64,000 bases of DNA from contig NZ_CP010523.2 of the NCBI RefSeq assembly GCF_000828055.2, forward strand, positions 4,216,001 through 4,280,000, in the 5' to 3' direction. Source of the stretch: Klebsiella variicola (lineage in GTDB: Bacteria > Pseudomonadota > Gammaproteobacteria > Enterobacterales > Enterobacteriaceae). Under the pieces are notes generated by a model that did not search any database, had not been told where the DNA came from, and saw only the letters and a list, made by a program, of their open reading frames with translations. The position numbers and the translations under genes are program-made. Of the stretch, positions 52,491-55,730 are shown one piece after another; the first letter of the stretch is position 1; the number at the start of each line of letters is the position of its first letter.

Positions 52491-53378
52491 ATGTTTAAGC
52501 AATACCTGCAAGTAACGAAACCAGGCATTATTTTTGGCAACCTGATCTCCGTGATCGGCGGTTTCCTGTTGGCCTCCAAAGGCCACATCGACTATCCGCT
52601 GTTCGTCTGGACGCTCCTTGGAGTATCCCTGGTGGTCGCCTCGGGTTGTGTATTCAACAACTACATCGACCGGGACATCGATCGTAAGATGGAACGGACG
52701 AAAAACCGGGTGCTGGTCAAAGGGCTGATCTCGCCAGAAGCTTCGCTGGTGTACGCCACCTTGCTGGGTATTGCTGGCTTCATGCTGCTGTGGTTCGGCG
52801 CAAATCCGCTGGCCTGCTGGCTGGGGGTGATGGGGTTCGTGGTTTATGTCGGCGTCTACAGCCTGTACATGAAACGCCACTCCGTCTATGGCACGCTGAT
52901 TGGCTCACTCTCCGGCGCCGCGCCGCCGGTGATTGGCTACTGCGCGGTCACCGGTGATTTCGACAGCGGTGCGGCGATCCTGCTGGCTATCTTTAGCCTG
53001 TGGCAAATGCCTCACTCCTACGCCATCGCGATTTTCCGCTTTAAGGATTATCAGGCGGCGAACATTCCGGTGCTGCCGGTGGTGAAAGGCATTTCGGTCG
53101 CCAAAAACCATATTACGCTGTACATCGTTGCCTTTGCCGTGGCGACCCTGATGCTCTCGCTGGGCGGCTACGCCGGGTATAAATACCTGGTCGTGGCGGC
53201 AGCGGTCAGCGTCTGGTGGCTGGGCATGGCGCTGCGTGGCTATAAAGTGGCCGATGACAAAGTCTGGGCGCGTAAGCTGTTCGTCTTTTCCATCGTCGCC
53301 ATCACCGCGCTGTCCGTGATGATGTCCGTTGACTTTATGGTGCCGGATTCACATAGCCTGCTGGCTTACGTGAGATAA
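52491..53378 (+). CDS. cyoE: Protohaem IX farnesyltransferase (haem O synthase)
   Basis: 295 residues from ATG 52491. A UbiA-type membrane prenyltransferase with the two aspartate-rich motifs ([18 protein letters not shown] and [11 protein letters not shown] region). It makes the haem O needed by subunit I. Last gene of the operon, followed by a strong terminator. Confidence 0.97.
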
Positions 53379-53401
53379 TCTCCCACTCCAGTGCGATATA
53401 A

Positions 53402-53425
53402 AGCCCCGTTTTTACGGGGCTTTTT
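53402..53425 (+). terminator. Terminator of the cyo operon
   Basis: AGCCCCG-TTTTTA-CGGGGCT followed by five T. Confidence 0.93.
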
Positions 53426-53531
53426 CTTTTCTGCTTCCTCACCGCTTTCTTTCTCATTTCATACTCCCCTCCCCTCTTCCGGCCGTTTACGCTGCTCTCC
53501 TGCCAAAAAATGAGGAAAAAATGAGCTAATA

Positions 53532-53556
53532 CACAGCGGACCTGACTCGCGCTGTG
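53532..53556. promoter_or_regulatory. Inverted repeat upstream of the double-glycine peptide gene
   Basis: CACAGCG and CGCTGTG are separated by 11 bases, about 70 bases before the gene's ATG, and a smaller GCAC…GTGC repeat follows. The spacing suits a dimeric regulator's operator or an RNA hairpin in the leader. Unproven. Confidence 0.35.
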
Positions 53557-53628
53557 CACGACAGCAGTGCTACCTTTTGCACCGGGTTTACCCACCCATT
53601 TGGAAAATCATTACTACAAGGAATTGCA

Positions 53629-53961
53629 ATGAAAGAGTTAACACTAAACGAAATGGAGTACATCTCCGGTGGCTTTAACCTGTTCGGCGCGGCCAGCGGC
53701 TTCGCCAGCTTTGTTGCCAACTCGGGCGTCGGCTTCACCTCTTTTGTTCTCACCTCCGGCAGCGCGTTTGCCTCCTTCGTCGGCGACAGCGCGATGGCGT
53801 TTGGTTCCTTCCTGACCGGGCAGTCAAACTGGGAAACCTTTGTGACCACTGGTAGCGAAAACTGGGGAAACTTTGTCCTCACCGCTGGCAAAAACTGGAA
53901 CATCTTCGTAGATAACGCCGCCAGCAACTGGAACAGCTTCCTGAACAACGCGTCGGCGTAA
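53629..53961 (+). CDS. Microcin-like peptide with double-glycine leader and 11-residue repeats
   Basis: 110 residues from ATG 53629, with AAGGA seven bases upstream. Residues 1–15 (MKELTLNEMEYISGG) match the colicin V-type double-glycine leader, cut by C39-peptidase ABC exporters after GG. The mature 95 residues consist of tandem units of the form [F/W]-x2-F-[V/L]-x6, with the first aromatic at 25, 36, 47, 58, 68, 79, 90 and 101: four units open with Phe, then four with Trp, with one residue missing at the switch. Residues 16–19 (FNLF) look like a shortened ninth unit. It has no Cys, Pro, Arg or Tyr and a net charge near -3, unlike cationic or disulfide-bonded microcins. No exporter or immunity gene is adjacent. 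Function unknown: bacteriocin, or a secreted assembling protein. Confidence 0.8.
   Translation: MKELTLNEMEYISGGFNLFGAASGFASFVANSGVGFTSFVLTSGSAFASFVGDSAMAFGSFLTGQSNWETFVTTGSENWGNFVLTAGKNWNIFVDNAASNWNSFLNNASA
53703..53958 (+). repeat. Protein-level tandem repeat block in the microcin-like gene
   Basis: Eight degenerate units of 33 bases (one of 30) encode the [F/W]-x2-F-[V/L] repeats. Codons differ between units, so the duplication is old and the protein pattern has been kept by selection. Confidence 0.75.
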
Positions 53962-53974
53962 GCAACATCTTTGA

Positions 53975-53994
53975 GGGCAGCGCATCGGCTGCCC
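53975..53994. terminator. Hairpin after the microcin-like gene
   Basis: GGGCAGC and GCTGCCC with a 6-base loop lie between the peptide gene and the convergent IclR gene. The plus-strand tail TGTTTA is only moderately U-rich. Confidence 0.6.
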
Positions 53995-53997
53995 TGT

Positions 53998-54756
53998 TTA
54001 GCTCACCAGCATCGCCTGCGCGCTGTAGAGCAGATCGAGATGGTCGTGACATAACGCTTCCAGCGATGTGCGCGATTGATGGCTGGTCAGACTCAGCGCG
54101 CCCCACCAGGTTCCTTCCCTGTCAGTTAACGGCACCGCCAGCACCAGCATGCCAATCTCAAACTCCTGTTCAATGGTGGCATAACCCTGGCGCCGCACCT
54201 GGGCGATTTTCTCCATCAGCAACGCGACGTCGGTCACCGTATAGGGCGTGCGTTGTTCCCGGGTAATACGCTGCAGAACCGCCTCGCACTCAGCTTCCGG
54301 CAGCGAAGCCAGCCATAACCGTCCCCCGGCGGTACAGAAGATGGGTACCCGCTCCCCAAGCCGAACCGACGTGGAGTTAAATGGCGTATGCCGGCTGCGG
54401 GCGATATAGACCAGCTCATCTTCATCCACCACCCCTACCGAGGCGTGCTCCTCGGTCCGGCTGGCGATGTATTCGACAATTGGCCGCACCATGCGGGGAA
54501 ACTGCGCCGAATCGACGTAGGCCTGACCAAGCCGCAGCGTCTTCGGGGTAAGCCAGTAATAACGCCCATCGGTTTGCAGATAGCGCTCATGCAGCAACGT
54601 CAACAGAAAACGCCGCGCGGCGCTTTGCGTCAGGCCGCTCATTTTCGCCGCCTGGGCGACGGTGAGTTTTGGGCAGGTTTTGGAAAAAAGCTGGATTAAC
54701 GCCAGCCCTTTTTGTAAACCGACGATCAGATCGCGTGGATGAATGGTGTTTTGCAT
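53998..54756 (-). CDS. IclR family regulator (PcaR/PobR-like)
   Basis: 252 residues. An N-terminal winged helix (about 10–75; LTVAQAAKMSGLTQSAARRFLLTL) and a C-terminal IclR effector domain (about 90–245; GVVDEDELVYIARS and FCTAGGRLWLASL). The layout resembles PcaR/PcaU/PobR, which respond to aromatic or hydroaromatic acids. It is divergent from the shikimate dehydrogenase-like operon and very likely controls it; the gap carries a palindrome plus direct repeat of the kind bound by PcaU. Confidence 0.9.
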   Translation of the reverse strand: MQNTIHPRDLIVGLQKGLALIQLFSKTCPKLTVAQAAKMSGLTQSAARRFLLTLLHERYLQTDGRYYWLTPKTLRLGQAYVDSAQFPRMVRPIVEYIASRTEEHASVGVVDEDELVYIARSRHTPFNSTSVRLGERVPIFCTAGGRLWLASLPEAECEAVLQRITREQRTPYTVTDVALLMEKIAQVRRQGYATIEQEFEIGMLVLAVPLTDREGTWWGALSLTSHQSRTSLEALCHDHLDLLYSAQAMLVS

Positions 54757-54792
54757 ATTCGCTCACATTTTTGCAACATCATTATCGATTTC

Positions 54793-54819
54793 CTGCGATT
54801 ATCGCAGCGATCGTGCGAT
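54793..54819. promoter_or_regulatory. Candidate IclR-family operator (palindrome plus direct repeat)
   Basis: CTGCGATTATCGCAG is a palindrome at 54793–54807 and TGCGATT recurs 20 bp after its first occurrence. PcaU-type sites combine a palindrome with an additional direct repeat in just this way. Located between the IclR gene and its divergent operon. Confidence 0.55.
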
Positions 54820-54908
54820 TAACAACCGACATGTCCGAATTCTGCGTTGTCGCTCCCAGCTTCCACTGAAATACTTTCACAACATTCATTTAACAAATGA
54901 GGTTTGAA

Positions 54909-55730
54909 ATGGTCAGTGGAACTACCCAGGTTGTTGCCGTGATTGGTCATCCGATCGCCCAGGTCAAATCACCGGATAACTTCAACCGCTACTTTGCTGA
55001 ACAGCACATGGACAGCGTCATGATCCCGGTGGATATCGCCCCGGACGCGGTAGTCGACTACCTCAACGCTCTGCGTGGCTGGCAGAACATGACCGGCGTG
55101 CTGGTGACGGTGCCGCATAAGCAGCGCGCCGCCGCGCTGGTCGACGAGCTCACCCCCCGCGCCCGCCGACTCAACGCCATCAATGTGATCCGCAAATTGG
55201 CGGATGGCCGTTTGCAGGGCGATATGCTGGACGGCGTCGGCTTTCAGCTCGCCGCCGAGGCGCAGGGTTTTCAGCCGGCAGGTAAGCAGGCGCTGCTCTC
55301 CGGCTGCGGCGGCGTCGGCAGCGCCATCGCCTGGGGACTGTGCGAGGCGGGGATCCGTCAGCTGGCCCTGCACGATCAAAACCCGACCACCCGGCAACGC
55401 CTGCATGACCTTCTGGCTGAGGCCTTCCCGGCGGTACAACTGAGCGCGCTGCCGGACACCCTTCACGGCGTCGATCTATTGGTTAATGGCTCGCCGGCCG
55501 GCATGGCCGGATTTGATGAGCTGCCCCTGCCGCAGGCGCTGCTGGATACGCTCGACAGCGCCACCCACGTGGCTGATGTTGTCACCGCCCCGGTGATGAC
55601 GCCGTTGCTCACTTTCGCCGCCGCCCGCGGCTGCCGGGTGCAGACCGGGCCGGAAATGGCGCTGGCGCAGATGACGCTGATGGGCCAGTTTATCGGCGCC
55701 ATCCCGCCGGCGCAGGGAGCGGCAGCATGA
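54909..55730 (+). CDS. Shikimate dehydrogenase-like oxidoreductase (AroE family)
   Basis: 273 residues from ATG 54909 (TGAGGT upstream; the ATG at 54897 overlaps that site). An N-terminal substrate domain with the catalytic lysine Lys71 in VPHK and Asp108 in GDMLDGVGF, and a Rossmann domain with GCGGVGSA (132–139). The usual Ser-x-Ser that grips the shikimate carboxylate is altered: the region reads QVKSP. Together with the gene context this suggests a catabolic rather than biosynthetic enzyme with shifted substrate. First gene of the operon; its end overlaps the next gene (ATGA). Confidence 0.88.
   Translation: MVSGTTQVVAVIGHPIAQVKSPDNFNRYFAEQHMDSVMIPVDIAPDAVVDYLNALRGWQNMTGVLVTVPHKQRAAALVDELTPRARRLNAINVIRKLADGRLQGDMLDGVGFQLAAEAQGFQPAGKQALLSGCGGVGSAIAWGLCEAGIRQLALHDQNPTTRQRLHDLLAEAFPAVQLSALPDTLHGVDLLVNGSPAGMAGFDELPLPQALLDTLDSATHVADVVTAPVMTPLLTFAAARGCRVQTGPEMALAQMTLMGQFIGAIPPAQGAAA

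Follow-up and report, generated by a model that had tools for sequence, protein, structure and literature searches.

Results

A small double-glycine precursor gene downstream of cyoE

The window, i.e., the whole 64,000-nucleotide stretch of Klebsiella variicola contig NZ_CP010523.2 that was analysed, carries directly after cyoE a forward-strand open reading frame (ORF) of 110 codons, whose product begins with a double-glycine leader and continues as a repeat rich in aromatic residues. We refer to this product as the hairpin protein, after the fold predicted for it below, and to its gene as the hairpin gene. The features of the locus are the following (positions within the window).

53402..53424, + strand: inverted repeat followed by a T run after cyoE, likely terminator (by sequence)
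53568..53576, + strand: likely extended -10 promoter element TGcTACCTT (upstream alignment)
53618..53622, + strand: likely ribosome-binding site AAGGA (by sequence)
53629..53961, + strand: precursor ORF of the hairpin protein, 110 aa (translation, orthologues, dN/dS)
53629..53673, + strand: double-glycine leader MKELTLNEMEYISGG, with cleavage expected after GG
53674..53958, + strand: mature part, 95 residues with eight [F/W]-x2-F-[V/L] units (repeat count against shuffles)
53680..53814, + strand: predicted helix 1 (Phe helix), mature residues 3-47 (AlphaFold2, hendecad layout)
53815..53829, + strand: predicted turn TGQSN, mature residues 48-52, within the 10-residue unit (AlphaFold2)
53830..53955, + strand: predicted helix 2 (Trp helix), mature residues 53-94 (AlphaFold2, hendecad layout)

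Translation and residue counts confirm the outline that a previous, sequence-only reading had given of this gene, that is, the ORF, the double-glycine leader, the 95-residue mature part, its 18 aromatic residues (14 Phe and 4 Trp) and its lack of Cys, Pro, Arg and Tyr; His is absent from the mature part as well. The few charged residues are two Asp, two Glu and one Lys (net charge -3), and the mature protein has a mass of 9.92 kDa and a pI of 4.05. The eight [F/W]-x2-F-[V/L] units, starting at mature residues 10, 21, 32, 43, 53, 64, 75 and 86, were also recovered as described, and 100,000 shuffles of the mature residues never reached this number (mean 0.68 units, maximum 6). The period of 11 residues that had been claimed for these units holds for six of the seven spacings (11, 11, 11, 10, 11, 11, 11) and breaks at the short unit, which is the switch from Phe-start to Trp-start units; the last unit also ends after 10 residues. 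An antisense ORF at 53526-53948 was rejected as a mere reflection of the coding-strand frame; several orthologues have stops in it.

The hairpin gene probably has its own promoter and forms its own transcript, because a terminator-like, GC-rich inverted repeat follows cyoE and the TGnTA element, about 60 bases 5' of the ATG, is conserved in all 14 upstream regions that were aligned. Its position directly after cyoE recurs in 10 of 13 stretches compared on the cyo side (all those where cyoE was found); the exceptions are two stretches without a cyoE match (L017 and L026) and one (L024) that carries a second cargo family, described further below. The gene on the 3' side varies, being iclR in some loci and yajR in others. 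When ORFs of at least 35 aa in positions 53001-55200 of the window were compared with nine loci, no conserved immunity-like ORF was found beside the hairpin gene; the only ORFs common to all nine were cyoE, the hairpin gene and iclR, and three short ORFs in the gap between iclR and aroE were present in five of the nine, the loci with yajR next door lacking them.

Distribution and selection

With the window protein as query, the hairpin gene was recovered from 12 of 60 relatives, 11 of 20 species genomes within the same genus and 5 of 392 genomes sampled across the family, and a profile search across the order recovered it from 3 of 394 genomes. A profile search of a second genus, g168, matched 6 of 40 genomes; the match in G800 (E-value 1e-8) reads as the second cargo family, leaving the hairpin gene in 5 of 40. 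Carriers identified by name are K. pneumoniae ATCC 13883, K. pneumoniae strain 176, K. aerogenes NCTC10006 and Silvania confinis. The sequence-only reading would have been refuted by a lack of homologues with the same leader and repeat, and it stands on this point, as such homologues exist. The orthologues keep the frame, with dN/dS ratios of 0.03-0.29 in 11 of 12 chosen orthologue pairs (the twelfth pair was saturated). Judged from these ratios, the frame is coding and evolves slowly under constraint, i.e., under purifying selection. Protein identity among congeners is 59-88%, with the leader and the aromatic ladder strongly conserved among the orthologues.

A plasmid or mobile origin was considered and rejected, the plasmid set having yielded just two records, a 5.4-Mb one from K. 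pneumoniae and a 770-kb one from K. aerogenes that carries cyoABCDE. As a side observation, CP125156.1 (L019), a 5.4-Mb record with cyo genes filed as a plasmid, looks like a mislabelled chromosome.

A predicted two-helix hairpin

The hendecad ladder is strictly kept: across 17 orthologues, all 68 units in the first half of the mature part have Phe at position a and all 68 in the second half have Trp there, Phe occupies position d in 132 of 136 units, position e is mostly Val, and position h is small (Ser, Ala or Gly), with Gln in 12 cells. AlphaFold2, run on the mature protein with 13 sequences, predicted two long helices (pLDDT 97.2, pTM 0.77) joined by a turn that coincides with the switch from Phe to Trp. 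The single-sequence run on the precursor gave helices at residues 6-62 and 68-109 with the turn unchanged, although this prediction was weak (best pLDDT 71.3, pTM 0.49; three of five models at 34-41), and long helices are in general easily over-predicted. A fold-back at the turn would bring together residues whose numbers sum to about 99-100. The a and d residues of the two halves form eight pairs (F10/F89, F13/W86, F21/F78, F24/W75, F32/F67, F35/W64, F43/F56 and F46/W53) that all sum to 99 and are centred on the predicted turn, and this arithmetic, which draws on the sequence only, agrees with the hairpin model. That the mature protein is an antiparallel two-helix hairpin is thus, in our assessment, highly probable, and the a and d residues would then presumably face each other as eight layers of aromatics, F/F and F/W. 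The two forms that the sequence-only reading had envisaged, a single helix with one aromatic face or a stacked solenoid, are not what AlphaFold2 returns for this protein.

The two predicted helices differ in character. Helix 1 is hydrophobic all round (GRAVY 1.14) and helix 2 has a polar outer side (GRAVY -0.32). The highest 19-residue hydropathy window is 1.34, below the usual cut-off of 1.6 for a membrane span, and a membrane-spanning helix was rejected on this ground. One continuous 11/3 helix was also rejected, the hydrophobic moment at 98.2 degrees being 0.11 against a shuffle mean of 0.10 (best of four angles); at 100 degrees the moment reaches 0.23, close to the highest shuffle value (0.245). 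Structure matches in the PDB are generic helical hairpins (e.g., ATP synthase c subunits), none of them strong, and no PDB sequence matched at E 0.1 (best E 0.2). For a helical hairpin, the lack of a strong PDB match carries little information, and we do not claim a new fold.

A single C39 exporter next to groEL

The window genome contains a single Peptidase_C39 match, located beside groEL and 796 kb from the hairpin gene on the same contig (hairpin gene at 4,269,629, exporter at 5,065,712). Its operon runs from a fimbrial chaperone, an usher and adhesin-like genes through three copies of a Gly-zipper cargo gene and an HlyD adaptor to the exporter (709 residues), followed by a YjeJ-like protein (PF15922), a small lipoprotein and groEL. 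The Cys, His and Asp of the C39 motif are present in the exporter, as judged by eye. The leaders of the three Gly-zipper copies (MKELSIMEMGYVSGA, MKELSIMEMDYVSGA and MKELSMVEMDCVSGA) are nearly identical to that of the hairpin protein. The copies themselves are near-identical, 129 residues long, and lie before the exporter at L021:4936-6231 (= C1:5,062,935-5,064,230). In another genome (G001, L062), the HlyD adaptor falls into two pieces that overlap in different reading frames, and it may be broken there.

We searched the DNA of 20 genomes of the genus, with a reversed control, for the leader pattern M-K-x-L-x3-E-M-x2-[IV]-S-G-[GA]. The pattern had 26 matches in 14 of the 20 genomes against none in the control; since it was derived from these leaders, finding them is by construction, and only its absence elsewhere is informative. 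All 26 matches open ORFs of 100-129 aa, i.e., 10 hairpin genes, 3 members of the second cargo family and 13 Gly-zipper genes, and exactly four of them belong to the window genome, namely its hairpin gene plus its three Gly-zipper copies. In G002, the hairpin gene departs from the pattern at a single residue. Six genomes have no match to the pattern, and none of them has the groEL-linked exporter subtype; they have either no C39 protein (G005, G017) or only ones of 30-41% identity (G004, G014, G016, G018). Three further genomes (G008, G009, G011) have a related exporter, 68-69% identical and located elsewhere, and each has one leader match, which is the local Gly-zipper peptide, with the hairpin gene absent. 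The second cargo family (GAGI[IL]xxPCAL...GIWSNFV.AAT.WG) has the same leader as the hairpin protein; the distance to the hairpin gene is at most about 14 kb in G001, G003 and G007 and about 20 kb in G797; G800 has the second cargo without the hairpin gene. The loci of these second cargoes are L013 (G001), L014 (G007), L139 (G003), L097 (G797) and L096 (G800).

The cargoes of this exporter appear to evolve at different rates. Compared with three congeners, the Gly-zipper cargo is 30-38% identical, and it is undetected at E 1e-4 in the others, whereas the exporters among those congeners are 79-83% identical. That is, the Gly-zipper cargo changes fast and the exporter does not, so the former looks like a variable weapon and the hairpin protein like a constant part. 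This difference in tempo, with the hairpin protein at 59-88%, would also fit a two-protein, contact-dependent weapon akin to Cdz of Caulobacter crescentus, in which the constant hairpin protein and the variable Gly-zipper protein leave by the same exporter and are assembled on the surface of the producer. The available text of PMC5380434 provides the precedent, describing CdzC/CdzD as two small Gly-zipper proteins of type I export that form surface aggregates, kill by contact and are countered by the immunity protein CdzI. The likeness lies in small hydrophobic type I cargo with several cargoes per exporter; however, according to the same text, the cdz genes adjoin both exporter and immunity gene, and both products are Gly-zipper proteins, while the hairpin protein is not one and is encoded far from the other cargo. 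A CdzI-like gene was not identified in our case, and the exporter with Gly-zipper cargo occurs without the hairpin gene in G801, G008, G009 and G011. We consider a Cdz-like weapon quite unlikely.

The hairpin gene and the exporter subtype mostly occur together

The exporter subtype was set by a gap in identity (79-88% vs. 71% for the next best), with identities compared for the strongest C39 places, namely the 35 at E<1e-31 among the 60 relatives and the 25 at E<1e-32 in g168, where the weakest subtype member scored about 3e-35. Among the 60 relatives, 12 have both the hairpin gene and the exporter subtype and 48 have neither (Fisher 7e-13, kinship ignored). The 40 genomes of g168 comprise four with both, one with the hairpin gene only (G346), two with the exporter only (G800, G801) and 33 with neither (Fisher 0.00078, kinship again ignored), and the 392 family genomes comprise four with both, one with the hairpin gene only (G346 again), two with the exporter only (G088, G184) and 385 with neither (Fisher 8e-8, likewise ignoring kinship). 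A few genomes belong to more than one of these samples, and kinship among the genomes means that the counts should not be read as independent trials. The pairing extends to Silvania (G430), which has the hairpin gene and an exporter of 80% identity. G801, for its part, has the exporter subtype with two Gly-zipper copies (L111) and no hairpin gene.

A case of apparent decay is provided by G012 (L071), where a DDE transposase ORF splits the adaptor gene, no Gly-zipper cargo turned up next to that gene, and the hairpin protein is down to 39% identity with most of its aromatic ladder lost. The clear exception to the pairing is G346, with an intact hairpin gene and no C39 protein (L015/L028). An intact copy without any C39 exporter is what one might expect if the gene were non-secreted or decaying, i.e., if the leader-like start were historical and the protein acted inside the cell or not at all. 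We regard this as very improbable, because the leader and the ladder are conserved, the gene is under purifying selection, and its pairing with the exporter subtype is close.

Across the 15 genomes with both genes (105 pairs; the decayed G012 and Silvania left out), hairpin and exporter identities are uncorrelated (Spearman 0.01), and therefore the pairing does not look like plain co-inheritance. Further, the window genome has its closest exporter counterpart in G786 of g168 (88%) and its closest hairpin counterpart in K. pneumoniae (88%). Together, these results suggest that exporter alleles move or recombine separately from the hairpin gene, and that the two are kept together despite this would point to need rather than shared descent. 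Hence, the data argue for need as the explanation of the pairing, with the relatedness of the genomes and G346 counting against it.

Discussion

Relation to microcins and other double-glycine proteins

The earlier proposal had two parts, a double-glycine-leader precursor of a secreted protein and, possibly, an undescribed microcin, and these fared differently. The former is supported by homologues that keep leader and repeat and by the C39 exporter in the genome. The latter keeps its leader and exporter and is otherwise weakened. The other option named there, a secreted assembling protein, would be compatible with all the observations. Specifically, the hairpin protein resembles class II microcins (microcin V/colicin V) in having a double-glycine leader of 15 residues (within the 15-18 of that class), a C39 exporter with HlyD adaptor in the genome, and a mature part below 10 kDa; the hydrophobic residues of MKELTLNEMEYISGG at -4 (I), -7 (M) and -12 (L) also follow the rule for class II microcin leaders stated in the available text of PMC11494933. 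In contrast to these microcins, the gene lies away from the exporter, has no immunity-like neighbour and is conserved in a core-like manner with slow, constrained evolution, and the mature sequence and predicted fold differ. The glycine content of the mature part, 11.6%, is just under the range of 12-26% given for class II microcins in the same text, which also reports candidates with 8-10%.

Membership in a known bacteriocin family did not emerge from profile searches either: no Pfam or NCBIfam model exceeded its curated cut-off. Pfam gave no family at E 10, microcin V (PF17508) included, and the top NCBIfam match, to lactobin A/cerein 7B class IIb (TIGR03949), reached 15.8 bits against a cut-off of 21.5 and covered residues 2-23 only, i.e., the leader resembles that family and the mature part has no match. 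PADLOC also returned no match for the hairpin protein. In the literature searched, the hairpin gene is undescribed, with the proviso that it may figure among the microcin hits listed for PMC9746304 and PMC11494933. In the available text of PMC9746304, Cole et al. report that cinful gave microcin hits in nearly 100% of the assemblies of K. pneumoniae, K. quasipneumoniae, K. variicola and K. aerogenes; these hits might include the hairpin gene or the Gly-zipper peptide. Of 180 strains of the K. pneumoniae complex surveyed in PMC10269471, 59 had bacteriocin genes, and the hairpin gene is absent among the bacteriocins listed in the available text. The protein thus looks conserved and undescribed.

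Given this mixed resemblance, it is rather doubtful that the hairpin protein is a class II microcin-like bacteriocin, whose Phe helix would insert into the inner membrane of competitors and whose immunity would come from a distant gene, perhaps the one that encodes the YjeJ-like protein in the exporter operon, or be unneeded. Such a bacteriocin would agree with the leader, the exporter and adaptor, the mature mass of 9.9 kDa, the fully hydrophobic helix 1 and, if they include this gene, the Klebsiella microcin hits mentioned above; however, it is at odds with the lack of a conserved adjacent immunity-like ORF, the distance of the exporter, the constraint on the gene (dN/dS), the failure of any Pfam or NCBIfam microcin model to match, and the hydropathy maximum below the membrane-span value.

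Double-glycine proteins with a job other than killing have a precedent in EbfG1-4 of Synechococcus elongatus, which are likewise small cargo of a C39 transporter (PteB) and, according to the available text of PMC4997328 and PMC9981879, form amyloid in the biofilm matrix. EbfG is amyloid, whereas the Klebsiella hairpin protein is predicted to be helical. We know of no sequence relation between the EbfG proteins and the hairpin protein.

A model of export in trans and surface action

The best reading of the class is a double-glycine protein that is exported in trans and acts at the surface, and not a textbook microcin. The explanation that accounts best for the data as a whole, to which we assign a probability of about 0.5 (averaged over its surer and its more speculative steps), is that of a trans-exported double-glycine protein that forms a two-helix hairpin and has a surface role. 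Under this model, the genome's one C39-peptidase ABC exporter, groEL-linked and 796 kb away, would, together with its HlyD-type adaptor, recognise the precursor, expressed from its own gene after cyoE, by the leader MKEL..xEMxx[I/V]SG[G/A]. The exporter would cut the precursor after Gly15 and push the product out, presumably with the participation of TolC. Export in trans by this exporter with cleavage after Gly15 is very likely, given the leader, the co-occurrence and the lack of any other C39 exporter. The 95-residue product would then fold in antiparallel fashion, the four Phe-start hendecads forming helix 1 and the four Trp-start hendecads helix 2.

Outside the cell, the hairpin protein would act at the surface and not as a lone diffusible killer. 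With helix 1 hydrophobic all round and the outside of helix 2 polar, it would be expected to rest against a membrane or against further copies of itself. Its likeliest role may be that of a constant surface or matrix component, co-secreted with the rapidly changing Gly-zipper protein that uses this exporter too. This role is a guess that we hold at somewhat less than even odds, and it draws on the absent immunity-like neighbour, the slow evolution of the gene and the neighbours of the exporter, whose operon follows fimbrial chaperone/usher genes. A bolder extension, which we offer as speculative and unlikely to hold in full, is that in Klebsiella and its relatives one chromosomal type I exporter serves a scattered secretome through one leader, comprising a variable, toxin-like Gly-zipper cargo encoded beside the exporter and the fimbrial genes and constant cargoes encoded elsewhere, chiefly the hairpin protein with its eight-layer Phe/Trp ladder. 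The constant hairpin protein would then be the common scaffold or delivery subunit for the variable Gly-zipper cargo. Such a two-part surface system, without an immunity gene beside its constant part, would be new.

If the surface model is correct, searches for double-glycine proteins that are limited to exporter neighbourhoods miss distant, conserved cargoes, even in species as well studied as K. pneumoniae. The hairpin protein also offers a clean test of one exporter handling several cargoes, and its strict division into a Phe helix and a Trp helix is an unusual natural hendecad design, open to structural study. A role in killing, gluing or protecting would show whether the type I "microcin" exporters of gut bacteria have non-antibiotic work, as has been shown for cyanobacteria in the available text of PMC4997328 and PMC9981879.

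Finally, E. coli gives an indication of what may remain of such an operon. No DNA match to the hairpin gene was found in 5,426 E. coli genomes, and the exporter gene had no E. coli match over 80% of its length. The corresponding region of E. coli K-12 reads groL-yjeI-yjeJ-epmB, with the exporter absent there, and yjeJ (L164:9366-10235) is the only piece of the Klebsiella exporter operon annotated in K-12. The yjeJ gene of E. coli K-12 is perhaps a relic of such an exporter operon.
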